A stretch of DNA of 64,000 bases from Cutibacterium equinum (GCF_028021195.1 NZ_CP115668.1:1612001-1676000), one strand, 5' to 3'. Positions 3,902 through 19,051 are shown, numbered from the stretch's first letter. Numbers and translations: made by a program. Notes: a model not told the origin generated them from the letters alone.

Positions 3902-6805
3902 ATGACGGCCACCACGGACATTCTCCAGGACTTTCGCTCAACCCTGAGGGGCTTGGACGCATCTGCTGTGGACACCCTGGACGATTCCCGGCTGGGTCGC
4001 GCCTTGTATTCCTCTGATGCTTCGATTTACCGCGTCGTCCCTACCGCGGTCGCCCATCCGCGAAGTACTGATGAGCTGTGTGCCTTGGTGACGGCCGCCT
4101 GTCACGTCGGCCTACCCCTCACGACCCGTGGCGCCGGCACGACATGTGCTGGCAATGCCGTGGGAACCGGCCTCATCATCGACACCTCGAAGCACCTCGA
4201 CCGCATCCTTTCCCTCGATCCAGAATCAGCTACCGCCGTCGTCGAGCCGGGTGTGGTCCAGAACTGCCTCCAGCAGGCCGGGGCTCCCCATCACCTGCGG
4301 TTTGGTCCAGACCCCTCCACGTCGACTCGCTGCACCATCGGCGGGATGATCGGGAACAACGCTTGCGGACCGCGGGCTTTGGGGTACGGACGTACCGGAG
4401 ACAACATCGTCGACCTCGACCTGCTCACTGCTGACGGACGCATAACGTCCCTGCGCCCAGGTGATCTCACCCCCGCCTTCGCGCAACGCCTCGCCGATCT
4501 GGCAGACGCGAACCTTGGAACCATCCGAACCGAATTCGCGACCTTCTCCCGCCAAGTTTCCGGCTATTCCATGGAATGGCTTCTGCCCGAACGTGGTCGC
4601 AACCTTCCCTCCTTCATCGCCGGCAGTGAGGCCACCCTCGGCATCGTCACGAGGGCGACGGTCCGGCTCGTCCGCGAGGCTCCCTACGGAGTCACGGTGG
4701 CGCTGGGCTACCCATCGATGCCCGAGGCCGCCGACGCCGTCACGGCTTTGCTGCCCTTCTCCCCCGTCGCGTGCGAAGGATTTGGGAGACGGATCGTCGA
4801 CGTGGTCGCCCGGGCAGGACGACCAGTCCCTGACCTTCCACGTGGCGACGGCTGGATGTTCGTGGAGCTTCGCGGCGATGACGAAGCTGAGGTGGCGTCT
4901 CGGGCCAAGGACATGGTCTCTGCCAGCGGATGCCTCGATGGCTGGGTGGTCTGCGATCCAGGTCAGGCCTCAGCCCTGTGGAAGATCCGTGCTGACGGTG
5001 CAGGATTGGCCGGTGTCAGCCTCGACAAGCCGGCCTGGGCAGGATGGGAGGATTCGGCCGTTCCCGCCGCCGACCTTGGCGCCTACCTCCGAGACTTCGA
5101 GTCCTTACTGGAGGACCACGGCCTTCACGGTCTGCCTTACGGCCACTTCGGCGAAGGGTGCCTGCACTGTCGCATCGACTTCCCCCTCGATCAGCCCGAC
5201 GGCCCCCAGCGTTACCGCTCCTTCATCACCGAGGCGGCACACCTGGTCGCCCAGCATGGCGGCTCGGTCTCCGGAGAGCACGGTGACGGCCGGGCACGCT
5301 CGGCCTTGCTGGAGACGATGTACTCCCGCGAGGCTGTGGATCTCTTCGGCAAGGTCAAGGCCATCCTCGACCCGGACAACATGTTCAACCCGGGGATTCT
5401 CGTCAACCCTGCCCCGCTCGAGGCCAGTATCCGAACCCACGAGTCGGCTCTTTCCGCGATCACCATCTCCCATCCCGACTTCGCCAGAGAAGTCCATCGC
5501 TGCACCGGGGTCGGCAAATGCATCGCCCACACCGCCTCGGGCGGGCTGATGTGCCCCTCGTATCAGGCTTCCGGGCTCGAGGTGGACTCCACCCGGGGCC
5601 GGGCCAGCGTGCTCAAGGAGATGGTCAATGGCACTCTCATTGGCGGTTGGGACTCCCCCGAGGTGGAACGGGCCCTCGACCTGTGCATGGCATGCAAGGG
5701 GTGCGCTCGTGACTGCCCTACCGGAATCGACATGGCCAGCTACCGCAGCACGGTGCTCAACGAAAAGTACCGGCACCGGCTTCGTCCCCGCTCTCACGTG
5801 ACCATGGGCCTGCTTCCCCTCTGGGAGCGCCTGATCAACCACATCCCGGGAGCGCCTGCCCTGGCCAACACAGTGCTGTCGGTCCCGGTTTTCGCTCGTC
5901 TCGCCCGGTGGACGGCCGGCATCGACCAACGCCGTCCAATTCCCCGGTTCCAGGCCTCGGCACGATTGGCCAGCGGGAACGCAACATCAGCACAGCGCAT
6001 CGTGGCGGATCAGGAAACTCCGGCCTCGTCTGCTACCGAAACTCCCTCGTCGGCATCACCCTCGCTGACGCGCCACAAGCCAGACAAGGGGGACGTCGTC
6101 ATCTGGGTGGATTCCTTCTCCGACATGTTGGAAGGCTCAGACCTCTCTGCGGTCGTCGCGGTGCTGGCCGACGCGGGCTACCACCCCAGGGTCCTGTCCG
6201 ACAACGTTTGCTGTGGCTTGAGCTGGATCACCACTGGTCAGCTCAACGGTGCCCGTCGTCGGCTCCGAGCCGGAGTGGCGGTGCTGGCTCCTTTGGCCGA
6301 TGCCAACGTCCCGGTTGTTGGGTTGGAACCGTCCTGCACAACCGTCTGGCGTGACGACGCCCTGCGCCTTCTTCCGGACGATCCACGCGTTGGTCGCGTC
6401 GCCCGGAACATGTGCACGGTAGCTGAGCTGCTGGAGGCAGCGAACTGGACCCCGCCTTCCCTGGCTGGCCACACCGTCGTCGCCCAGCCCCACTGCCATC
6501 ACGCGTCGATCCTTGGCTTCGGCCCGGACAAGCGCTTGCTCGAGGCTGCAGGGGCGAGGGTCACGGTGGTCGGCGGTTGCTGTGGTTACGCAGGAAACTT
6601 CGGAGTCGAGAACGGTCATTACGACTTCTCGGTGAAGGTTGCCCAGCATGACCTCCTCCCGGCCATTGACGAAGCCGGGGAACAGGCCATCATCCTTGCC
6701 GATGGGTTCTCCTGCCGCCGGCAAATCTCGGACCTGGCAGGACGTCGAGCTCTCACCCTCTCAGAGTTGTTTGCCTCACATCTGCCAGCGCGGACACCAC
6801 GCTGA
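3902..6805 (+). CDS. FAD-binding and 4Fe-4S oxidoreductase, D-lactate dehydrogenase-like (Dld/GlpC fusion)
   Basis: 967 aa fusion. Residues about 40-280: PCMH-type FAD-binding domain (TTRGAGTTCAGNAVG, GNNACGPRALGYGRT). Residues about 290-540: FAD-oxidase C-terminal domain with PYGHFGEG and GEHGDGRAR. Residues about 545-640: two [4Fe-4S] motifs (CTGVGKC...CPSY and CMACKGCARDCP). Residues about 725-960: a CCG heterodisulfide reductase-like domain with CCGLSW, a CHHASILGF segment and GGCCGYAGNFG. This is the architecture of the large quinone-linked D-lactate or glycolate dehydrogenases, which oxidise a 2-hydroxy acid and pass electrons through FAD and Fe-S centres. In a lactate-consuming propionibacterium a D-lactate role is plausible but not proven. 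It follows marR with a 4-base gap. Confidence 0.85.
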   Translation: MTATTDILQDFRSTLRGLDASAVDTLDDSRLGRALYSSDASIYRVVPTAVAHPRSTDELCALVTAACHVGLPLTTRGAGTTCAGNAVGTGLIIDTSKHLDRILSLDPESATAVVEPGVVQNCLQQAGAPHHLRFGPDPSTSTRCTIGGMIGNNACGPRALGYGRTGDNIVDLDLLTADGRITSLRPGDLTPAFAQRLADLADANLGTIRTEFATFSRQVSGYSMEWLLPERGRNLPSFIAGSEATLGIVTRATVRLVREAPYGVTVALGYPSMPEAADAVTALLPFSPVACEGFGRRIVDVVARAGRPVPDLPRGDGWMFVELRGDDEAEVASRAKDMVSASGCLDGWVVCDPGQASALWKIRADGAGLAGVSLDKPAWAGWEDSAVPAADLGAYLRDFESLLEDHGLHGLPYGHFGEGCLHCRIDFPLDQPDGPQRYRSFITEAAHLVAQHGGSVSGEHGDGRARSALLETMYSREAVDLFGKVKAILDPDNMFNPGILVNPAPLEASIRTHESALSAITISHPDFAREVHRCTGVGKCIAHTASGGLMCPSYQASGLEVDSTRGRASVLKEMVNGTLIGGWDSPEVERALDLCMACKGCARDCPTGIDMASYRSTVLNEKYRHRLRPRSHVTMGLLPLWERLINHIPGAPALANTVLSVPVFARLARWTAGIDQRRPIPRFQASARLASGNATSAQRIVADQETPASSATETPSSASPSLTRHKPDKGDVVIWVDSFSDMLEGSDLSAVVAVLADAGYHPRVLSDNVCCGLSWITTGQLNGARRRLRAGVAVLAPLADANVPVVGLEPSCTTVWRDDALRLLPDDPRVGRVARNMCTVAELLEAANWTPPSLAGHTVVAQPHCHHASILGFGPDKRLLEAAGARVTVVGGCCGYAGNFGVENGHYDFSVKVAQHDLLPAIDEAGEQAIILADGFSCRRQISDLAGRRALTLSELFASHLPARTPR

Positions 6806-6870
6806 CGGCAGGCACCACGCTGACAGCACGACGCCGAGAGGACACCACGCGACAGGGCCCACACGGCAGA

Positions 6871-6900
6871 TCAGGTCGGACCACCATTGGCCCGACCTGA
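6871..6900. terminator. Terminator hairpin between convergent genes
   Basis: TCAGGTCGG and CCGACCTGA form a 9-bp stem; the 12-base intervening segment contains a further CCA/TGG pairing. It lies between the convergent oxidoreductase and telA genes and could serve both. The preceding 60 bases contain CACCACGCTGAC twice, a short direct repeat. Confidence 0.55.
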
Positions 6901-6932
6901 CCCCGAGGCCTCACGTTAACCTCACGCAAACT

Positions 6933-8267
6933 TCACGCCGTGATCGCGGCAACCTCAGACTGCTTGTCGCTGGGCACTTGGGCCATGACCGTCTCGGGCA
7001 GGTGTGGTGCGGGAGGAAGCTCGACGGTGTTCGCGGACTTGGCGACGAGCTCGGCGACTGTCTGGTCCAGATCGGCGGAGGTCTTGGCGATGCTCGACTG
7101 GGCGACCAGGATCGCAGCGACGACCTCCTGGCGAGCCGACTCGCCGTAGCGAACCGCGTCTTGTAGACCGGTGGCCTGCTGATCAAGGGACTCAGCGACG
7201 TCGAGGATCGTCTGCGGGTCCAGGGTCGGAGTCTGCATCGTGCGAGAGATCTCACCCACGGTCTGTCCCGAAGCCGCGGCGTAGGCCGACAACACCTCGT
7301 TGGCCCCCTCGGCGACGGCCTTCTGCATACCTGTGGCCTGCTGGGCCTCGAGCAGCAACCCCCACTGGGCGATGGTGAGCTTCATCGTCGGGATCGTGAG
7401 GTTGACCATGAGGGCCAGACGCTGGCCGAGTCCGTAGTGCAGGGCGCGAATGTTGCGAATCTGCGGGCTGGTGGACCATGCCACGAACAGACGCTGCTGG
7501 AACTCGTTGATGCGCGTCTGCATCGCCGTCATGAATTCGGTGATGCGAGCCCTCTCCTCCTGTTTGGCACGGCCATCAGGGGCGGACAGGTCGACGACGA
7601 TCGCGGCCTGCGCCTTGGCAGCCTCGTCGAGAATGGCCTCCATCACGGCGATGGCGCCGACGAGTTGGGCGATAGAGGCCTCGTTGGCCTGGTAGAGCTC
7701 GTCGCACAACACGACGTTGCGACGCAGTTCACGCTGCTTGGTGGCGAGTTGCCCGGCAATGCGGTCGAGCTGCTGGTCGACCGAGCGCGCCTCCTCGAAG
7801 AGCATCTCGACGATGTCGCGGCCACGTCGGAAGATTCCCTTGATAGCGTCGGTGAACTTGTCGAATGTCTCTCGAACCTCACGGTTGAGGCTCGGGTCAT
7901 AGTTGCGGCGGAAGGCGCGCATCCTGTCGTTGATCTCGTTCATGATCGAGGTCAACTCGGGAATTTGCACCGGGCCGACCTCACGGAAGATCCGATTCAC
8001 CTGGCTGTTGACTGCCGACAGCGCCTGATCGCCGAAGGACCCCAGCGCATCGGTGTCGGCCAGCAGGCGCTGGAACTGCTGCGCAGCCATCTTTCTGGCT
8101 GCCTCCTGCTGTTCGGTAGAGAGCATGGCCAGGCACGAGAGGGTGTGACCCGGCTCAGCCCCCTGCGCGGCTTGGACGGCGAGTTCTCCAACAGTGGAGT
8201 CGGCCGCCCCCTTGGCAGGGGTCTCGGGTCCGGTCAAGGCATTGAAATCGATCGACATCTCGGACAT
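6933..8267 (-). CDS. telA: TelA / YaaN toxic-anion resistance protein
   Basis: 444 aa, almost entirely helical, with the central region of the TelA family (QLDRIAGQLATKQRELRRNVVLCDELYQANE... followed by helices rich in Gln, Ala and Glu). TelA homologues were named for plasmid tellurite resistance, but most are linked with Ter-type stress systems, and their biochemical role is not known. The start is set at ATG 8267: AAAGG lies six bases upstream, while the TTG six bases earlier has no better site. It is the last gene of the operon VWA/SBP - XpaC-like - SBP - TelA, separated from the preceding SBP by 37 bases. In Bacillus the TelA homologue YaaN is encoded next to XpaC, so the XpaC-TelA pairing is conserved across phyla. 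Confidence 0.85.
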   Translation of the reverse strand: MSEMSIDFNALTGPETPAKGAADSTVGELAVQAAQGAEPGHTLSCLAMLSTEQQEAARKMAAQQFQRLLADTDALGSFGDQALSAVNSQVNRIFREVGPVQIPELTSIMNEINDRMRAFRRNYDPSLNREVRETFDKFTDAIKGIFRRGRDIVEMLFEEARSVDQQLDRIAGQLATKQRELRRNVVLCDELYQANEASIAQLVGAIAVMEAILDEAAKAQAAIVVDLSAPDGRAKQEERARITEFMTAMQTRINEFQQRLFVAWSTSPQIRNIRALHYGLGQRLALMVNLTIPTMKLTIAQWGLLLEAQQATGMQKAVAEGANEVLSAYAAASGQTVGEISRTMQTPTLDPQTILDVAESLDQQATGLQDAVRYGESARQEVVAAILVAQSSIAKTSADLDQTVAELVAKSANTVELPPAPHLPETVMAQVPSDKQSEVAAITA

Positions 8268-8304
8268 GGTCAACCTTTCGGTGGTGCTGTTGTGGTGGTT
8301 GTGC

Positions 8305-9456
8305 TCAGGAACACTTCTTGGCGTCAGTGAGGCAGGCCAACAGGGCCGACGTCACGTCGGCGTTGGTGGCGGGAATGGTCCGCACGCGTGAGGCGAGGGG
8401 CAAGTCCTTGATAGTTGACGTGGTGTTGATTCCAGCATTCGTCGTGGATCGGAACCCGTACTTCTTCCACGCGATCGTCTGAATCTCATTGTCACGCATG
8501 GCGTTGATGAGCTTGCGGCCGTCGGTGTCCAGGGTGATCTGAGTAGATCGTCGGGCTGGGGTACAGCACCGTGACGTCCTTGAGGATCTCCTTCGAGTTC
8601 GAGTTGGTGGCTGCCAGCTGGATGATCTGGTTCTCGTACCCGGCGAACAGCGGGCCGCGTACTCACCGCCCTGGGTGAGCCACTGACCGAAGCCATTCTC
8701 GGAGCTGGCTGCCTGTAAGCCCGAGGTCTCGTACAGCTGCCTCATCTGGGGCAACACCGCTTTGCTCTGGGCCAAGGTTGGCGAGGAGGTGTTGTCTTTG
8801 GTGGCCAGGATCGTCAGTTCGAGCTGCATCATGGTGAACCCAGAGTTGGAGCTTCGAGCATCGGTGCTGCGGATGCGTACCGGGCCGGCCAGATTTCCGG
8901 CCTTGAGCTTCTGCCACGTGGTGTCCTTCGTGGCGTGGTCGAGTAGAAAGGTCTTGATGTCGAACTCGTGATGATCGTCGACCTTGGTGACGAGCTTGGC
9001 GCGCTGCAACGCGGCCGTTGCCTGCGGACCGGAATAGACCACCTCGGGGGACTGCAGGACCGTCTGGGCACGATATCCGGAGAATTGGCCGCGATGGTCA
9101 GCCTCGAAGATCCGCTGTGCTGAAGCGCTGGAGGGCCACAGGCAGTTGAATCCGGCCTTCTTGATGTCATCGGTCGACATCTGGACCTGGGAGTAGGAGC
9201 CCATCGGCACGAAGTCAAGTTTGAGGTGGTACTTGTCGGCAAGCACCTTGGTGACTTCCGGGTCAGCCATGAGTTCGGTCTTCTCCGAGCCACCTGCGCA
9301 CTTGATCTGGGTGACCTCAGACGACGACGTCTTCGCCTTGCCGCCACCGGTAGACGAGGATGAATCCGGTTGCAGATAGAGGTACGACGCTCCCCCGACG
9401 ACGCACACGAGGAGCAGAATAACGACCCCAATGATGAAACGTGGTTTGGACATCAT
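8305..9456 (-). CDS. Membrane-anchored solute-binding-like protein with a compensating frameshift pair
   Basis: 383 aa as an open frame. One N-terminal membrane segment (residues 7-28) without lipobox is followed by a Ser/Gly linker and a periplasmic-binding-protein-like domain: KCAGGSEK and a pattern (VTKVLADKYHLKLDFVPMGSYSQVQ) resembling the related domain of the upstream lipoprotein. Residues about 268-303 are Arg/Ser/Thr-rich nonsense, whereas another frame there reads FAGYENQIIQLAATNSNS and VTVLYPSPTIYS, which is what the family should have. Two opposite single-base shifts, near 8650 and 8545, explain this. It overlaps the XpaC-like gene by 4 bases. Ligand unknown; it may be a domain that senses or presents a metal or anion. 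Confidence 0.7.
   Translation of the reverse strand: MMSKPRFIIGVVILLLVCVVGGASYLYLQPDSSSSTGGGKAKTSSSEVTQIKCAGGSEKTELMADPEVTKVLADKYHLKLDFVPMGSYSQVQMSTDDIKKAGFNCLWPSSASAQRIFEADHRGQFSGYRAQTVLQSPEVVYSGPQATAALQRAKLVTKVDDHHEFDIKTFLLDHATKDTTWQKLKAGNLAGPVRIRSTDARSSNSGFTMMQLELTILATKDNTSSPTLAQSKAVLPQMRQLYETSGLQAASSENGFGQWLTQGGEYAARCSPGTRTRSSSWQPPTRTRRRSSRTSRCCTPARRSTQITLDTDGRKLINAMRDNEIQTIAWKKYGFRSTTNAGINTTSTIKDLPLASRVRTIPATNADVTSALLACLTDAKKCS
8545..8655 (-). other. Out-of-frame segment between two compensating frameshifts
   Basis: Between about 8655 and 8545 the real coding frame is displaced: the nominal frame yields a basic Arg/Ser/Thr string, the neighbouring frame yields a well-formed binding-protein segment. 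One base (or four) appears missing near 8652 and one base appears extra (or two missing) near 8545, which restores the nominal frame. Confidence 0.7.
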
Positions 9457-10088
9457 TTCTCCTCGATGGCGAGAACGGGCATTTCCGGCGGGGCGACAGT
9501 CTCAAGATTGGCTCGGTATTCCGCCAGATCTCCCTGGTTGATGAGTCGGATCGAATCGACGGCGAAGTCAAGGAACCGCCGCGTCGCCTGCTCTCCGGCC
9601 AACAACACCTCGTCGGGCTGCTTGTAGTAGGTGGGATGTTCCTCGACGTCGCGGTAGGTGTTCACCACCCCTGACAGCGAGCGCAGATGACCTTCCAGTT
9701 GGCTGGCCGTGGAATACAAGGCAGATGGCGATGCCTCCTTCACCCGATCCAACAGATCCGGAACAACCTTGGAGATCTGCCTCACCAGTGACTTCATGGA
9801 CGCCGAGTCCAAGGACCGACCTTGACTGGTGATCTCGTCGACGATCCGATGACACGACCTCACCTTGTCCTCGGCGTCGTCGTTGTAGGAGTCGTCGGTG
9901 ATTTGAGCGGGGGAACGCCACATGACCAAGCTGACGCCAACTGCGGTGGCGATGGCCAAGCCGGTCGAGATGGCCAGGCGTGGAACCGGCGCGACTGCGT
10001 CAAGAATGATCATCATGACGATGAAGACCACGGCGACCGCAGCCAGGACGGCCGCAGATGCGACTGTACGGGCGCGACGTCGACTCAC
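9453..10088 (-). CDS. XpaC-like membrane protein (5-bromo-4-chloroindolyl phosphate hydrolysis family)
   Basis: 211 aa. Two N-terminal transmembrane helices (residues about 10-32 and 38-56) are followed by a cytoplasmic helical domain of about 150 residues (DKVRSCHRIVDEITSQGRSL..., LEGHLRSLSGVVNTYRDVEEHPTYY..., FLDFAVDSIRLINQGDLAEYRANLETV). The layout and the neighbouring TelA agree with the XpaC family, whose members co-occur with TelA/YaaN. No enzymatic motif is visible; the historical phosphatase name does not imply a proven activity. It overlaps both neighbours by 4 bases, so the three upstream genes are translationally coupled. I infer that it anchors a TelA assembly to the membrane. Confidence 0.65.
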   Translation of the reverse strand: MSRRRARTVASAAVLAAVAVVFIVMMIILDAVAPVPRLAISTGLAIATAVGVSLVMWRSPAQITDDSYNDDAEDKVRSCHRIVDEITSQGRSLDSASMKSLVRQISKVVPDLLDRVKEASPSALYSTASQLEGHLRSLSGVVNTYRDVEEHPTYYKQPDEVLLAGEQATRRFLDFAVDSIRLINQGDLAEYRANLETVAPPEMPVLAIEEK

Positions 10089-11731
10089 TTGTACCCCGCA
10101 GCTTCCCGCAACGCCGACACCATGTCCTCGTTCTTCACGTGGCTACCACCGCTGGCCTTCGCGACCTCTTGGAGCTGCCCGGGTGAAGCTCTCTTGCCGA
10201 AGGCGATCGTCACGACGGGGATGTGGGCCTTCTTGAGCTCGTCGATGGACGAGGCTCGGGACTTGTCCTCAGATTGGCCGTCGGACATGACGACGATCAG
10301 CTTCTTGCTCACCGAGGACCTCGACAGTTGCTGAACGGCATGGTCGAGGCAGGTGTACATGTCCGTTCCGCCGTAAGGGTCGTACCCGTCAATCTTGTCG
10401 CGCAGGTCAGTGAACTTACTGGGGTCGTTTCCGGTGACCGTCCATGGCCCGGCAGCAAGGTTGCTGTTGAAGATCGAGACTGTGGTGACGTCCTTGTTCG
10501 CTGTTTGCAACCTGTTGCGCTTGGCTTCGGCGGGATCGAACAATGCCTTCGCTGCGTCCTTGACGCCATCCCAGCCACCGTTGCTGGCCATCGATCCGGA
10601 CCCGTCCAGGCAGTAGTAGGTATTCACCGGCTTGCGGTAGAGGGAGTGATAATCGTCCAGAGCTTGGTCGATCACCTCGGAACTGGGGAAGGTGACTCCC
10701 TGCTCCCTGAGGGTGGTCTTGATCCCCCAATCAGGATTGAAAACCTTGGCGTCGGCATTGCTCATGGACAGGCCGACCCCATTGCCCGGACGTCGTCCGA
10801 TGGCGGCCAACTTCTTCAGTGCGTCATCGTCCTTGAGTAGATAGTTCTGCAGCTCGTTGAAGACCTTGTGATGCCCCTCGACATCGGCTTGACCATGGTC
10901 GACGAATCCGAGCGGAGCATCCGAGATCGCCAGCGCGCCGCGCGGATAGGCGACGTAGAGGGGGTCCTTCCCCTGCCTGACCAACTTCTGATTCTCCTCA
11001 ATGACGAGGTCCTCATAGGTGAACATCGTCTGACAGAGATTGGGCTCATTGACGCACTGACTGGTCATGGTGCCGGTGGAAGGAGGGGTGCGATCCATGG
11101 CATTGAAAAACTTCTTCATGTCGTCGACGACCTTGGGGTCCTTGAGCTGAGCCGCCGTCAAGGCTTGCCCAGGAGGGTTGCCTGCGAAGTGGTTGAGGAA
11201 GCTGAACAGGACCGTGGCACCGGAATTCGACTGGGTCGGGTTGGTGGCCCACACCTTCACCTTGCCGGATTCGACGCTGTCGATGATCTGGGCTGCGGTG
11301 ACGTCCTTCCCGACGAGGCCAAGCTTGTCCATGACCGGCTTGTACCCGGCATAGACGACCGGGGTGAGGAACATCGGTTTGACGTCGCTGAGGACGTGCT
11401 TGGTGTTGGCGAGCTGGGAAAACACTGAGGAGGCAAACCAGTAGGCGTCAGCCTCGATCTGCCCGGCTTGGAGGTCACGGGCCTGATCAACCGACCCCTT
11501 GAGCTTCCATGTACAGGTGTATCCCTTGTTCTTGCACCAAGGACCGACGATGGTTTCGAGGACCGTCTTCTGCTCCGACCCAGCGACGATACTGAGGGCC
11601 GTCGGCCCCGTTGCCTCAGGCGTACTTGGGTCTCGGGACGTCAAGGAGCCCGCTGAGCACCCTGTGACGACCAGGCACACCGCGGAAACAAAAGCGGTGA
11701 CGACGGTGGGAACAAAATGGCGCCGACCCAT
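10085..11731 (-). CDS. Lipoprotein with solute-binding domain fused to a von Willebrand A domain
   Basis: 548 aa. Signal peptide with lipobox VTGCS (Cys 25) indicates an extracytoplasmic lipoprotein. Residues about 45-340 form a periplasmic-binding-protein-like domain (SIVAGSEQKTVLETIVGPW, VWATNPTQSNSGATVLFSFL). Residues about 368-545 form a VWA domain with a complete MIDAS metal site: DGSGS near 376, the Thr of GGTDMYT near 453 and the Asp of MSDGQS near 481. VWA domains bind protein partners through a divalent metal. It is the first gene of a four-gene operon with the XpaC-like protein, a second binding protein and TelA. The fusion suggests a surface sensor or scaffold in which ligand capture controls partner binding; that is inference. 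Confidence 0.8.
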   Translation of the reverse strand: MGRRHFVPTVVTAFVSAVCLVVTGCSAGSLTSRDPSTPEATGPTALSIVAGSEQKTVLETIVGPWCKNKGYTCTWKLKGSVDQARDLQAGQIEADAYWFASSVFSQLANTKHVLSDVKPMFLTPVVYAGYKPVMDKLGLVGKDVTAAQIIDSVESGKVKVWATNPTQSNSGATVLFSFLNHFAGNPPGQALTAAQLKDPKVVDDMKKFFNAMDRTPPSTGTMTSQCVNEPNLCQTMFTYEDLVIEENQKLVRQGKDPLYVAYPRGALAISDAPLGFVDHGQADVEGHHKVFNELQNYLLKDDDALKKLAAIGRRPGNGVGLSMSNADAKVFNPDWGIKTTLREQGVTFPSSEVIDQALDDYHSLYRKPVNTYYCLDGSGSMASNGGWDGVKDAAKALFDPAEAKRNRLQTANKDVTTVSIFNSNLAAGPWTVTGNDPSKFTDLRDKIDGYDPYGGTDMYTCLDHAVQQLSRSSVSKKLIVVMSDGQSEDKSRASSIDELKKAHIPVVTIAFGKRASPGQLQEVAKASGGSHVKNEDMVSALREAAGYK

Positions 11732-11811
11732 ACTATGGTTACAGCAGTAGGCCGGCGCCGTTAATAGCGCATTAGGGCGAGTTCATCGACCATTCATCGA
11801 TACGTCACCAC

Positions 11812-14236: not shown

Positions 14237-15856
14237 TCAGGACGCTTTCGACAAGATCTTGACGACCTCGTCGTGGTGATCGAGCTCGGCGTTGACCGGA
14301 TCAACGACCGATTGCCATGCCACCTCGGTGAGACTGGCCCGCAACTCGGACCTGGCATGATGGGCAGCCGCTCGAGAACCCGCCTGCACACCGATCTGGC
14401 ACAGCAGTGACACCAAGATCCCCGCGAGGGCGCCCCCCGCCACGATGAGGGGCGGCAGCGGGACGTGATGCCATCTCACCGGCGAGACTCGGAACTGGAA
14501 GTAGGCGGCCATGCCATCCACCAGCCACCAAATTGCCCCGGCCACGATGATGACCACGAGAATCCACTGCACCACCGTCACCGCTTTCCACCAGCCGGTA
14601 GCGCGATGCACCCCCAGATCCGTGGACGAGACAGCTCGATCAATGTCGTCGGGTAGATCCTTGCGGTTCGACAGTGACGCATCCCGCACCGAGTCGGCCC
14701 AAAGTCGCGGCAGCCCCTCGGAAGCTTGCGACGCCAGAGCGCGCACTGCCGTGTCCACCTTGGCCCCCGCAACGCCAACACGTGCCGTCATGGCGCTTCG
14801 CTGCACCTCGGTGGGTTCACTCCCGCGCGACAATTCCTTCTTCCGCCTGGTACGCCTCGAACCCAGGTCCAGATGCAGCCGGTGCAACGGATCCGGGCGA
14901 AGCTTCGACACCCAGGCCGTCACTGGCCACCCTGTGGCGTAGTGGCCTCTCTTGCGGTACGCATCCCGGGTCGCATCGACGACAGGGTCCACCCCACCTG
15001 CAGTGCACAAGGCGTCGATCAATCGGTCGACGGAGTCCTGGCTGACCTGACCTGCCTGGTCACCGGTCACTTCCGACAAGCGCTGGGAAACGCCGTCGAG
15101 GTCAGCATGGAGACGTGCTGCCTGCGCCTTCTTGGCACGCACGGCGCGAGCCAATGCGACACGCATGTCGTCCACGCCTTCACCTGTGGTGGCCGACATC
15201 GCCATGATCTTGGCCTTGTCCAGGCCTTCGGAGTCCAACAACCGGCGCAGGTCTCGCAGACAGTTCTTGCGTTGCTCCTTGTCGAGGCGATCAACCTGAT
15301 TGAGAACCACCGTCATGACCTCGGAATGGGTCGCCAGCGGCGCCAGATAACGCGTATGAAGAGCGGCGTCAGCATATTTCTGCGGATCGACGATCCACAC
15401 GATCATGTCGACCATCTCGACGAGCCGGTCCACCTCGAGTCGATGTTCGGTACGCACCGAGTCGTGGTCGGGTAGATCCAGCAGCACCAGACCGTCGAGA
15501 GCATCGTCGCTACCCATGTGGTGGCGACGAGGAACATCGAGCCAGTCCAACAAGGACTCGGCCGACTGGCTTCCCCACACCGCTGCTGTGGCTTTCGAGG
15601 TCGTCGGACGCCGCACGCCCGGATCGGACAGTTCCGCGCCGGCCAGTGCATTGAAGGTCGATGATTTTCCCGAGCCAGTGGCACCAGCAAGGGCAATGAC
15701 GGTGTGGTCACCGCCGATTCGGCAACGTTGGTCAGCACGATCAAGCACAGCGTGGACACGGTCGGCCAGCTCATCGGGGATACGTCCCGTCGACAAATCC
15801 ACCGCCGTGCTCAGCATCTCAATGCGCTCGGCAAGGTCGACGCGTCGTCTCCTCAT
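14237..15856 (-). CDS. Dynamin-like / YfjP-family membrane GTPase, second of a tandem pair
   Basis: 539 aa. N-terminal GTPase domain: P-loop GATGSGKSST near residue 57, G2 region RRPTTSKATAAV, G3 LLDLPDHDS near 130 and G4 NQVD near 185. A helical middle region (about residues 240-410) is followed by two transmembrane helices (about 425-455 and 470-490) and a short cytoplasmic tail. This layout matches bacterial dynamin-like proteins and the YfjP family of membrane-associated GTPases. The start overlaps the stop of the preceding GTPase gene by 4 bases, so the two are produced together and probably form a hetero-oligomer. Function in this organism is unknown; related tandem pairs in Streptomyces (DynA/DynB) act at division septa. 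Confidence 0.75.
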   Translation of the reverse strand: MRRRRVDLAERIEMLSTAVDLSTGRIPDELADRVHAVLDRADQRCRIGGDHTVIALAGATGSGKSSTFNALAGAELSDPGVRRPTTSKATAAVWGSQSAESLLDWLDVPRRHHMGSDDALDGLVLLDLPDHDSVRTEHRLEVDRLVEMVDMIVWIVDPQKYADAALHTRYLAPLATHSEVMTVVLNQVDRLDKEQRKNCLRDLRRLLDSEGLDKAKIMAMSATTGEGVDDMRVALARAVRAKKAQAARLHADLDGVSQRLSEVTGDQAGQVSQDSVDRLIDALCTAGGVDPVVDATRDAYRKRGHYATGWPVTAWVSKLRPDPLHRLHLDLGSRRTRRKKELSRGSEPTEVQRSAMTARVGVAGAKVDTAVRALASQASEGLPRLWADSVRDASLSNRKDLPDDIDRAVSSTDLGVHRATGWWKAVTVVQWILVVIIVAGAIWWLVDGMAAYFQFRVSPVRWHHVPLPPLIVAGGALAGILVSLLCQIGVQAGSRAAAHHARSELRASLTEVAWQSVVDPVNAELDHHDEVVKILSKAS

Positions 15857-17718
15857 CGTTCCTCCCCACGCGGCTCAGGATCCAGGACAACCGATGGTTC
15901 GATGATCTCGGCGTCGAGGACGGGCATGTCAACTCTCATGTGTCCAAGCTCAGAAGGTCCGGGCTCCTCCACCTGGCGGGTCTGTGGACGGGTTCGGATC
16001 GCCGCCTGGCCATCGCGGGATTCCGGCGCCTCCTGGGCCTGCCGCACCGCCTCGACCGAGGCGCGGATCCGAGCTGGCAGCTCGTGGTCGACCCCCAGTG
16101 CGGCGAGCGCGTCGTGGTAGCGCGCAACCTCATTGGCAAGTAGCCCCTCAACCCTGGCGTCAAGCTGTTCCTTGGCAACCTTCGCCAGACGTCGCACCGC
16201 GTCGTCGCCGAAGAGAGCCTCGAGAAGACGCTGAGCGACGATGGCCGATCCGCCAGCAATTCCAGCCTCGGCACCGGACAGTCCGCCAGTGTGGGTGAAG
16301 ACGACGAGCATCAGAGCGACGGAAACCCCGTTGACACCGAAAGCCATGAATCGGGCCTTGGAGCGTTTGTCCATGCCCTCCCCGGCAACCAACTCCATGA
16401 CGTCACCCTGCCAGTCCCTCACCGTACGAGAGACGGACTGCTCAAAACTGTCCGATGGGCGGGCCAGATCCTCGTCCGCCCGTTCCAGGACACTGCGGCC
16501 AGCCGGGTCGGCCTGCCACACGGCCTCAATGCGCTCACACCCGGCCTGGGTTTCCGCGATGATGAGGCTTTCCAAGCCAGATTCGACCGCGACACTGACC
16601 TTCTCGACCTCCGGCGGCGCTCCCTTGAACGCCTGGACGACGCGGTCTCGCAACCATGAGACCTTCGCCTCCATGGCCCGCATGAACTCGCCGGTTCCCA
16701 CGAATTCATGCCACCGTGCCAGTACCTCGCCACGCAGCAAGGTGCCGTCGGCAGACTGCGCGGCGATCGACTGCGCGGCCTCGGCCATGATCGACTGAGC
16801 ATCCTCGGCCAGCCGGGAGGTGGCGCTTGCTTGAGCCTCCAGGCCGGCGGCAATGTAAGACGACCTCTCACACACCGATCCGATGGCCCCCGACAAGGTG
16901 GACGCAATGACCTCACGTCGCTTCTGCTGGTCCTGAGCCAGGCTCGACAGGAAGAAGCGCAGCGGCGCAACCGCCTGGTCAGGAAGCAAGCCATCGGCAT
17001 CGGTCTTGGTCTCCGGCACGGCAAAGAGCGGGGAATCGGCCAGTCCCCGCGCTGTCATGAGCCGGCCAAGGTCCGCAGGAACATCCCGCATGGCCTCCGG
17101 GGGGACGCGGTCGCACACCACCGCCACGGACGCATGTCTCTCCTGGGCCTCGTTGAGGAAGTCCCACGGCACCGCGTCGGCGTAGCGGGCGGCCGAGGTG
17201 ACGAAGACCCACAGATCGGCTGCTTGCAGCAACTGGGCGGCGAGGTCACGATTTCGCGCCACCACGGAATCGATGTCGGGGGCATCCAAAATGGCCAAGC
17301 CCCTCGGGATTCCCGGCTCAGCGACCAGTTGGAGGCTCGATGCGTCATTGCTGGCAACCCGGGAGCGCACCAGTGTGGGCAGAACCCGGTCACCGTCAAA
17401 CCACACTGAGTCGTCAGGATGGTGGACGAGAACCGGGGAGGTGGTGGTGGGACGGATGACGCCGGGCCGGGTCACCACTCGCCCGACCAGCGAATTGACC
17501 AGGGTGGACTTTCCGGCTCCCGTCGACCCACCGACCACGGCCAGCAGCGGTGCGTCAATGGTCTCCAAGCGAGGAAGGACGTAGTCGTTGAGCTGGTTGG
17601 TGATGCGACGAGCCAGCCCCGCCTGGGTGATGGCCTCGGGCAGGTCAAGAGGGAACTCAGCCTGACGCAGGTCATGCCGCAGATCAGTCAGAGACAGCAG
17701 CATCTGCTCAGTATTCAT
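15853..17718 (-). CDS. Dynamin-like membrane GTPase, first of a tandem pair
   Basis: 621 aa. P-loop GGSTGAGKSTLVNSLVG near residue 63, G2 RPTTTSPVLVH, G3 LDAPDIDSV near 145, then a nucleotide-specificity region that is less clear (VVCDRVP). A long helical stalk (residues about 260-430) precedes a hydrophobic pair (about 455-475 and 490-510) and a Pro/Glu-rich C-terminal tail of about 70 residues with no obvious domain. AGGAAGG stands seven bases before the ATG. With the overlapping downstream gene it makes a two-gene dynamin-like cassette. The PrsW-like protease gene lies just upstream on the same strand (22-base gap), so all three may be one transcript. Confidence 0.75.
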   Translation of the reverse strand: MNTEQMLLSLTDLRHDLRQAEFPLDLPEAITQAGLARRITNQLNDYVLPRLETIDAPLLAVVGGSTGAGKSTLVNSLVGRVVTRPGVIRPTTTSPVLVHHPDDSVWFDGDRVLPTLVRSRVASNDASSLQLVAEPGIPRGLAILDAPDIDSVVARNRDLAAQLLQAADLWVFVTSAARYADAVPWDFLNEAQERHASVAVVCDRVPPEAMRDVPADLGRLMTARGLADSPLFAVPETKTDADGLLPDQAVAPLRFFLSSLAQDQQKRREVIASTLSGAIGSVCERSSYIAAGLEAQASATSRLAEDAQSIMAEAAQSIAAQSADGTLLRGEVLARWHEFVGTGEFMRAMEAKVSWLRDRVVQAFKGAPPEVEKVSVAVESGLESLIIAETQAGCERIEAVWQADPAGRSVLERADEDLARPSDSFEQSVSRTVRDWQGDVMELVAGEGMDKRSKARFMAFGVNGVSVALMLVVFTHTGGLSGAEAGIAGGSAIVAQRLLEALFGDDAVRRLAKVAKEQLDARVEGLLANEVARYHDALAALGVDHELPARIRASVEAVRQAQEAPESRDGQAAIRTRPQTRQVEEPGPSELGHMRVDMPVLDAEIIEPSVVLDPEPRGEER

Positions 17719-17740: not shown

Positions 17741-19051
17741 TCAGGCCTGTGGCGGCGCCCACTGCAACTCGTTGGCGATCGGAGCGGCGTGGCGTCTTCG
17801 CAGGAATGCGGGCAGTCTCGGTTTGGACAGTTTGGCGCCTCGGGCCACGGTGACAGCGATGGGACGCAGCGCGTTCATGTCGTTGATGAGTTGGATCTGA
17901 CGGGTACCCGGATCGTCGTCCAATCCACGAACGATTTCGTCGCGCAAGTAAGCCAGATTGGTACCAGTGCGCAAGAACTTCAGGGTGTTCCACCACCGGC
18001 GCGGACCCTGGCTCAAAGCGACCATCGCTGCCCACTTCCGCCGCGGCAGGGAGCACAGCGTGTCGGCGTCGGATTCCGGCAGCCATCCAGCCTTGACGTA
18101 ATCCTCAAGACGATTCCGGATCATCGTGCCTTCCCGCACCATACGAATGATCACGAAGACCACGACGGATGCGACGATCCCGAGAGCGATGTACCAAAGC
18201 TTCTTCAACGCTGCAACCGGGAGCACCGAGGAGAATCCGTTGAACAGCATGTGCCCGAGCACTGCCATGACGAACCCTGTCGTCGGGGCCAGAATCCGCA
18301 CTAGACGACTGCGAGATCGAAGCCCCAGGGCCAGACCGATACCCGTCATGCTGGTGAACAACGGATGCCCGAAAGATGTGTAGACGCCACGCAGCATGAC
18401 CAGTTCCAGGACGGCCTGCTTGGGATCACCCGCTGCCGCGGTGACGCGAGCGTAGTTGTCGGCCCGTGCGTAATACATGATGTTCTCGACGAAAGCGAAG
18501 CCGATGGCGGAAAGCCCGGCCATACTCACCGTCTGAAGCATCGAGGTCATACGTCTGCCCGTGAAAACAGCCAGCCCGAAAAGCACCATGGCCTTGCACG
18601 ACTCCTCGACAAAGGGAGCCGAATACACCGCTGGGCCCGCACCTGAGGCCGGATCAACCCCGCCTGCCACCGAGAGCATCCCAGCCATCCAGGTATTGAC
18701 GTGCAGGCTGATCCACGTCGCTATGCATGCTCCCCAGCAGAAGCAGAGGAACCAGATGTGAAGATGCCGGGTTCTGAACCGGTCGACGAGGATGAAGATC
18801 ACCGACCAGACGGCTGCCGTCGGCCATGCGTAGTGCAGACCAAGCTTGAACGACCGGTTCGTGATGCCCGGGATGACACCCTTTTGACCACCGTCGTCCA
18901 CCACTGTGTCCGCATGCATGATGTCGTAGGTGTGCACCAGTGAGGCCGCCGACGCCACGACCAGGACAAGCAGCACCCAGAACCACGGGTTACGCAACAG
19001 ACGTTGCCACCAAGGACGACGCGCAACGGGTGCGGGGGCAACGTAGGACAT
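17741..19051 (-). CDS. PrsW-family intramembrane metalloprotease
   Basis: 436 aa with about eight membrane segments. The conserved PrsW residues are present: EESCK (EExxK motif) near residue 150, FAFVENIMYY (FxxxEN) near 188, GHPLFTS and GHMLFNG with the metal-binding histidines near 228 and 263. The C-terminal 140 residues are cytoplasmic and basic. PrsW of Bacillus performs site-1 cleavage of an anti-sigma factor; in actinobacteria substrates are unknown and no sigma/anti-sigma pair is visible nearby. TAGTCT followed by six bases precedes the ATG, consistent with a leaderless mRNA. The two dynamin-like GTPases follow immediately on the same strand. Confidence 0.85.
   Translation of the reverse strand: MSYVAPAPVARRPWWQRLLRNPWFWVLLVLVVASAASLVHTYDIMHADTVVDDGGQKGVIPGITNRSFKLGLHYAWPTAAVWSVIFILVDRFRTRHLHIWFLCFCWGACIATWISLHVNTWMAGMLSVAGGVDPASGAGPAVYSAPFVEESCKAMVLFGLAVFTGRRMTSMLQTVSMAGLSAIGFAFVENIMYYARADNYARVTAAAGDPKQAVLELVMLRGVYTSFGHPLFTSMTGIGLALGLRSRSRLVRILAPTTGFVMAVLGHMLFNGFSSVLPVAALKKLWYIALGIVASVVVFVIIRMVREGTMIRNRLEDYVKAGWLPESDADTLCSLPRRKWAAMVALSQGPRRWWNTLKFLRTGTNLAYLRDEIVRGLDDDPGTRQIQLINDMNALRPIAVTVARGAKLSKPRLPAFLRRRHAAPIANELQWAPPQA

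Follow-up and report, generated by a model that had tools for sequence, protein, structure and literature searches.

A four-gene SBP-VWA, XpaC-like, SBP and TelA cassette of Cutibacterium equinum as a candidate envelope-stress module

What does TelA do, and why would it be encoded with extracellular binding proteins? For decades it has carried the label of a toxic-anion resistance protein without a known mechanism. The question is raised by a four-gene cassette of Cutibacterium equinum, which we analyzed within a 64,000-nt stretch of the 2.51-Mb host genome (GCF_028021195.1, NZ_CP115668.1:1612001-1676000; hereafter, the window). On the minus strand, from window position 11731 to 6933, the cassette encodes a lipoprotein combining a solute-binding (SBP) domain with a VWA domain, an XpaC-like protein with two TM segments, a second SBP, and TelA. 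As the initial annotation had described, the four genes are co-oriented and the first three overlap by 4 bases each, through GTGA between genes 1 and 2 and ATGA between genes 2 and 3; telA starts at an ATG (8267) 37 nt past the gene 3 stop and has its own AAAGG ribosome site.

Gene 1 (10085..11731, minus strand) encodes a 548-aa SBP-VWA lipoprotein that carries an SBP domain, a VWA domain with MIDAS, and a lipobox (VTGC, Cys25) read from the sequence. Pfam places SBP_bac_11 (PF13531) at residues 46-280 and VWA (PF00092, E 7e-15) at residues 374-541, and the two domains as a whole take up residues of about 45-365 (10637..11599, minus strand) and about 369-545 (10097..10627, minus strand); the AF2 model of the protein is good (pLDDT 84, pTM 0.81). 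In a Foldseek comparison with the PDB, the SBP half has a class II SBP fold, matching AfuA, FbpA, PotF, and ModA at TM-scores (target) of 0.6-0.73, and it also resembles SubI. Because the best of these matches include sugar-phosphate, polyamine, and metal binders, no ligand class is favored. The VWA domain matches that of the anthrax toxin receptor in fold, and its MIDAS (D376-x-S-x-S...T456...D484) is intact, with the five residues D376, S378, S380, T456, and D484 kept in 32 of 32 relatives; the fusion of a solute-binding domain to a MIDAS-bearing VWA domain, recognized in the initial annotation, is thereby upheld. RefSeq calls homologues of this gene 1-type product 'substrate-binding and VWA domain-containing protein', naming their partners only 'hypothetical protein' or 'toxic anion resistance protein'.

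Gene 2 (9453..10088, minus strand) encodes a 211-aa protein with two N-terminal TM segments by hydropathy (residues 11-29 and 38-56) and a helical domain predicted to be cytosolic. Its score against the XpaC profile PF10112 (23.9 bits) falls below the cut-off of 29.8, while orthologues in a Ktedonobacteria genome (L008, 47.5 bits) and an IMG/VR contig (L039, 43.8 bits) are above it. Gene 4 (6933..8267, minus strand) encodes the 444-aa TelA, which matches PF05816 over residues 68-363 (92 bits versus a cut-off of 30; E 5e-26), has no TM segment by hydropathy, and is predicted to be cytosolic and all-helical. Its AF2 model is of low confidence (pLDDT 58), with long helices at residues 146-221 and 232-333, and a PDB search with this low-confidence model returned nothing at E <= 0.001. 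We dropped a likening of the TelA fold to PspA/ESCRT-III because the model is too poor for comparison. Domain content and hydropathy agree with the topology predicted earlier, in which two binding proteins lie outside, the XpaC-like protein forms a membrane hairpin, and TelA is internal. Relative to C. avidum, dN/dS is 0.16 for gene 1, 0.18 for gene 2, and 0.12 for telA, and 0.11-0.18 across all four genes when gene 3 is scored outside the patch described below, indicating purifying selection.

Gene 3 (8305..9456, minus strand) encodes an SBP anchored by one N-terminal TM segment (residues 8-26) and is kept in relatives that have the module. A Pfam search gave no match for it, but a profile-profile comparison identified it as a homologue of the gene 1 SBP part (hhalign 98%, 297 columns), which supports the second membrane-anchored SBP of the initial annotation; that reading had missed damage to the frame of the C. 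equinum copy. When aligned with C. avidum and further orthologues, that copy shows a 1-nt deletion in a C run at about 8655 and an 11-nt deletion at about 8532, which compensate each other so that the frame is regained, with about 41 codons between them misread (8532..8655, minus strand) and a conserved YSDHP-type segment lost. By eye, the patch differs from C. avidum at three sites, all third positions of the original frame; because these differences are few and of this kind, the deletions appear recent. Sequencing error is unlikely to be the sole source of the shift, given the 11-nt deletion. Judged from this alignment, gene 3 of C. equinum is probably impaired, its binding domain scrambled over about 41 residues, and the local module may therefore have shrunk to gene 1, gene 2, and TelA.

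The cassette occupies an interval (6806..11811) that lies between the stop codons of a convergent pair of neighbors: ettA, co-oriented with gene 1 and 80 bp upstream of it, and a gene for an FAD/Fe-S dehydrogenase with its 3' end at 6777-6787. Within Cutibacterium, the cassette is found only in C. equinum and C. avidum and is absent from 7 of 9 species; in these seven, alignable sequence picks up again at the EttA stop (11811) on one side and at the dehydrogenase 3' end on the other, leaving an empty site of 107-1250 bp. C. avidum is the closest congener at the locus (90% DNA identity; other congeners, 84-88%). The cassette does not stand out in base composition (61% versus 62%), and no mobile genes flank it in C. 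equinum. The earlier statement that the locus lacks a permease or ATPase holds for the permease, which is absent from the cassette; an ATPase gene does lie 80 bp upstream, yet its product, EttA, is an ABC-F translation factor and not a transporter. With EttA and the dehydrogenase as adjoining genes and no importer partner for the SBPs in the cassette, a transporter function for the module is not supported, in agreement with the earlier view that the binding domains do not serve classical ABC import.

The order of the cassette is conserved far beyond chance, making it one conserved unit. All four genes stand in this order in eight Propionibacteriaceae genomes, C. equinum among them; in a ninth, a contig end truncates the locus, and a tenth has the other three genes with no TelA found beside them. 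The arrangement is shared by Ktedonobacteria (Chloroflexota; L008 and L009), an Erysipelotrichaceae MAG (L012), the Bacillota-like IMG/VR contig L039, and other Actinomycetota (L013 and L014), and the four components also come together in f43, in f22, and in Betaproteobacteria (Pseudomonadota; L051 and L052). Some loci are rearranged: SBP, TelA, SBP-VWA, and hairpin protein follow one another in Streptomyces-like genomes (L017-L020) and on a Sphaerotilus plasmid (L052), L016 has SBP, SBP-VWA, hairpin protein, and TelA, and a Variovorax plasmid (L051) has SBP, TelA, SBP-VWA, and a 208-aa protein without a match. The first three components are present with TelA not nearby in Armatimonadota, L011, and Deinococcus. 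Among 396 Actinomycetota genomes, TelA exceeded the cut-off in 17, SBP-VWA was found in 16, and 9 genomes had both (Fisher P = 4e-10, odds ratio 60, uncorrected for relatedness), and the two genes were adjacent in all eight cases without a contig break (8/8). The initial annotation had proposed looking for this gene order across actinobacteria; it is there, and adjacency is the rule where both genes occur.

Trees of SBP-VWA, SBP, and TelA each group Propionibacteriaceae with Ktedonobacteria, apart from the Streptomyces-like genomes, which belong to the same class as Propionibacteriaceae. Their congruence is in line with the cassette having been transferred whole. In the TelA tree, a divergent Propionibacteriaceae locus (L031) falls inside the Propionibacteriaceae/Ktedonobacteria group on a very long branch.

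A clue to function came from relatives in which another protein stands where TelA would be. In six divergent Actinomycetota loci (L022-L024 and L026-L028), an SBP-VWA gene with the same architecture as gene 1 is followed by a gene for a TM-helical protein and then by PspA/IM30, usually with an SBP gene upstream. Pfam matches (E 4e-20 to 2e-35) identified PspA in five of these loci, and a profile built from these sequences identified it in the sixth; TelA over the cut-off was absent from all genomes of the six loci. In L031, the SBP-VWA protein is of the PspA type by tree (support 84/69, long branch), yet TelA adjoins it. Comparisons by hhalign detected no sequence homology between TelA and PspA and no clear homology between the XpaC-like protein and the TM proteins on the PspA side. 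Because TelA and PspA are not homologous by sequence and the TelA model is too poor, the claim is one of functional replacement and not of shared descent; and since Cutibacterium has its own PspA, which in C. equinum is encoded elsewhere in the genome and not in the cassette, TelA is not a simple PspA replacement in this genus.

Published data on TelA and XpaC point the same way. The xpaC-telA genes of L. lactis were up 10.3- and 3.4-fold in a CesSR study of membrane-protein overproduction (PMC3139573), and Listeria lmo1966-1967 (xpaC-telA) was induced along with psp genes by the bacteriocin garvicin KS (PMC12791056, PMC11765107). A Listeria telA mutant was 4-fold more sensitive to nisin and 2-fold more sensitive to tellurite (PMC12791056, PMC11765107), and a 2021 review assigned TelA to structures beneath the membrane in Ter systems (PMC7824862). 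The operons of Firmicutes (L. lactis llmg_1115-1116, Listeria lmo1966-1967, and B. subtilis xpaC-yaaN) share with the cassette an XpaC-like protein and TelA, and are themselves induced by envelope stress; however, no SBP-VWA or second SBP has been reported for them, whereas the cassette has four genes in a set order. PSP/Lia systems (PspA, PspC, LiaI) likewise tie a cytosolic helical effector to a small membrane protein, but the cassette has no Toastrack, PspC, or LiaF. Ter systems (TerB/C/D/F with TelA) also pair TelA with a VWA protein, but the VWA domain of the cassette is extracellular and fused to an SBP, and a search of the whole C. equinum genome for TerD (PF02342), the Ter component tested, gave no match.

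We propose, with a probability of roughly 0.5, that the cassette is a horizontally mobile, co-inherited envelope-stress module with TelA as its membrane effector. We favor envelope stress over metal-anion transport because PspA fills the TelA slot in relatives and because of the published TelA/XpaC stress data. The initial annotation had named an envelope-stress or metal-anion system; the first half is supported by those data, and the second is weakened by the lack of TerD in the genome. In the proposed mechanism, the two SBP-type domains outside the membrane, one joined to the MIDAS VWA domain in gene 1 and one anchored in gene 3, would sense or hold an envelope-derived ligand, whose binding would alter how the VWA/SBP pair is seated on the two-TM hairpin of gene 2; gene 2 would then recruit or release cytosolic TelA at the membrane, which TelA might protect or stiffen from the position that PspA occupies in relatives. 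Such an outside-to-inside relay is most likely, although we infer its direction, the gene 2-TelA contact, membrane protection, and the identity of the ligand alike; it fits the PspA parallel better than the inside-out signaling suggested before. The initial annotation as a whole was right in part but had missed PspA in place of TelA. Against the envelope-stress reading, the stress data on TelA were obtained with xpaC-telA pairs of Firmicutes that lack SBP-VWA genes, and we also count the lack of TelA/PspA homology, the lack of clear homology between the XpaC-like protein and its PspA-side counterparts, the poor TelA model, the separate PspA of Cutibacterium, and the damaged gene 3. More tentatively, SBP-VWA modules may be a class of extracellular receptor for cytosolic membrane-protection proteins, with TelA the functional counterpart of PspA and either effector pluggable into the same SBP-VWA/SBP/TM-hairpin receptor; L031 may be such a swap caught in one family. 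We regard this broader idea as possible rather than probable.

The name of PF05816 and the Ter literature suggest instead that TelA confers tolerance, with the SBP domains capturing tellurite-like oxyanions or metal complexes, and the resemblance of the gene 1 SBP to ModA, SubI, and FbpA, among others, together with the tellurite sensitivity of the Listeria telA mutant, is compatible with this. However, the nisin effect in that mutant is larger than the tellurite effect, and with no TerD, no permease, and SBP matches that span several ligand classes, we consider such a resistance role unlikely. Alternatively, the module might organize the cell surface, as an adhesin or a scaffold for envelope assembly, instead of responding to stress, with its MIDAS VWA domain attached to a wall or host ligand; this would accord with the anthrax toxin receptor-like fold and the invariant MIDAS. 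Such a role leaves unexplained why the link with cytosolic TelA or PspA is so strict, and VWA-MIDAS domains also work in chaperone and signaling complexes, so that we see little probability in this explanation.

Patchy distribution with an empty site and transfer across phyla would also suit defense, with TelA/Ter-type proteins blocking pore formers or phage at the membrane. TelA is present in jumbo phages (PMC7824862), a phage-type integrase adjoins the complete four-gene set of L039 (7185-8417), and on plasmid 2 of Variovorax sp. SRS16 (L051, 9592-11007) a Wadjet JetA gene is located about 2-3 kb away from the module. The single Wadjet neighbor is anecdotal, though, mobile genes do not flank the C. 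equinum cassette, and PADLOC profiles matched none of six proteins tested, making defense improbable. Profile patterns confirmed no SBP-VWA in viral contigs, although the TelA query did yield the full set in L039; a TelA search of plasmids returned no IncP record, IncP kilA (TelA/KlaC) having been considered the nearest plasmid parallel. The gene 3 deletions (-1 and -11 nt) and the absence of the module from seven congeners could, finally, mark a decaying passenger in this strain at the onset of loss. The restored frame of gene 3 and the other three genes, intact at dN/dS 0.12-0.18, argue against decay, which we hold to be the least probable of these alternatives.

A partner set found across several phyla and its alternation with PspA would give TelA a concrete, testable role as a membrane-recruited envelope-stress effector. 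The module would also add an extracellular sensor arm to envelope-stress systems, one absent from the main text of a 2024 PSP survey, which makes no mention of TelA, SBP, or von Willebrand (PMC11237479). In literature other than a 2012 Ter survey, we found nothing joining the names TelA, XpaC, and VWA, or toxic anion resistance and VWA; the four-gene set has apparently not been described as a system, though a prior account in that survey is possible.

Variants of the module were also observed. In L031, a longer protein stands in for gene 2 between SBP-VWA and TelA (7908-8975); it has a secreted-looking N-terminal part, a TM segment, a helical tail, and no Pfam match. The hairpin protein of L016 (6557-7267) weakly matches the PspC/LiaI-LiaF TM family, below the cut-off (E 0.002), and a second Streptomyces-like SBP-VWA copy (L021, 5586-8582) has only an SBP gene beside it, without TelA or PspA. 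In the C. equinum window, upstream of EttA and on the same strand, two adjacent genes for Era/dynamin-like GTPases and one for a PrsW-type membrane protease (14237-17718 and 17741-19051) form a membrane-linked neighborhood.
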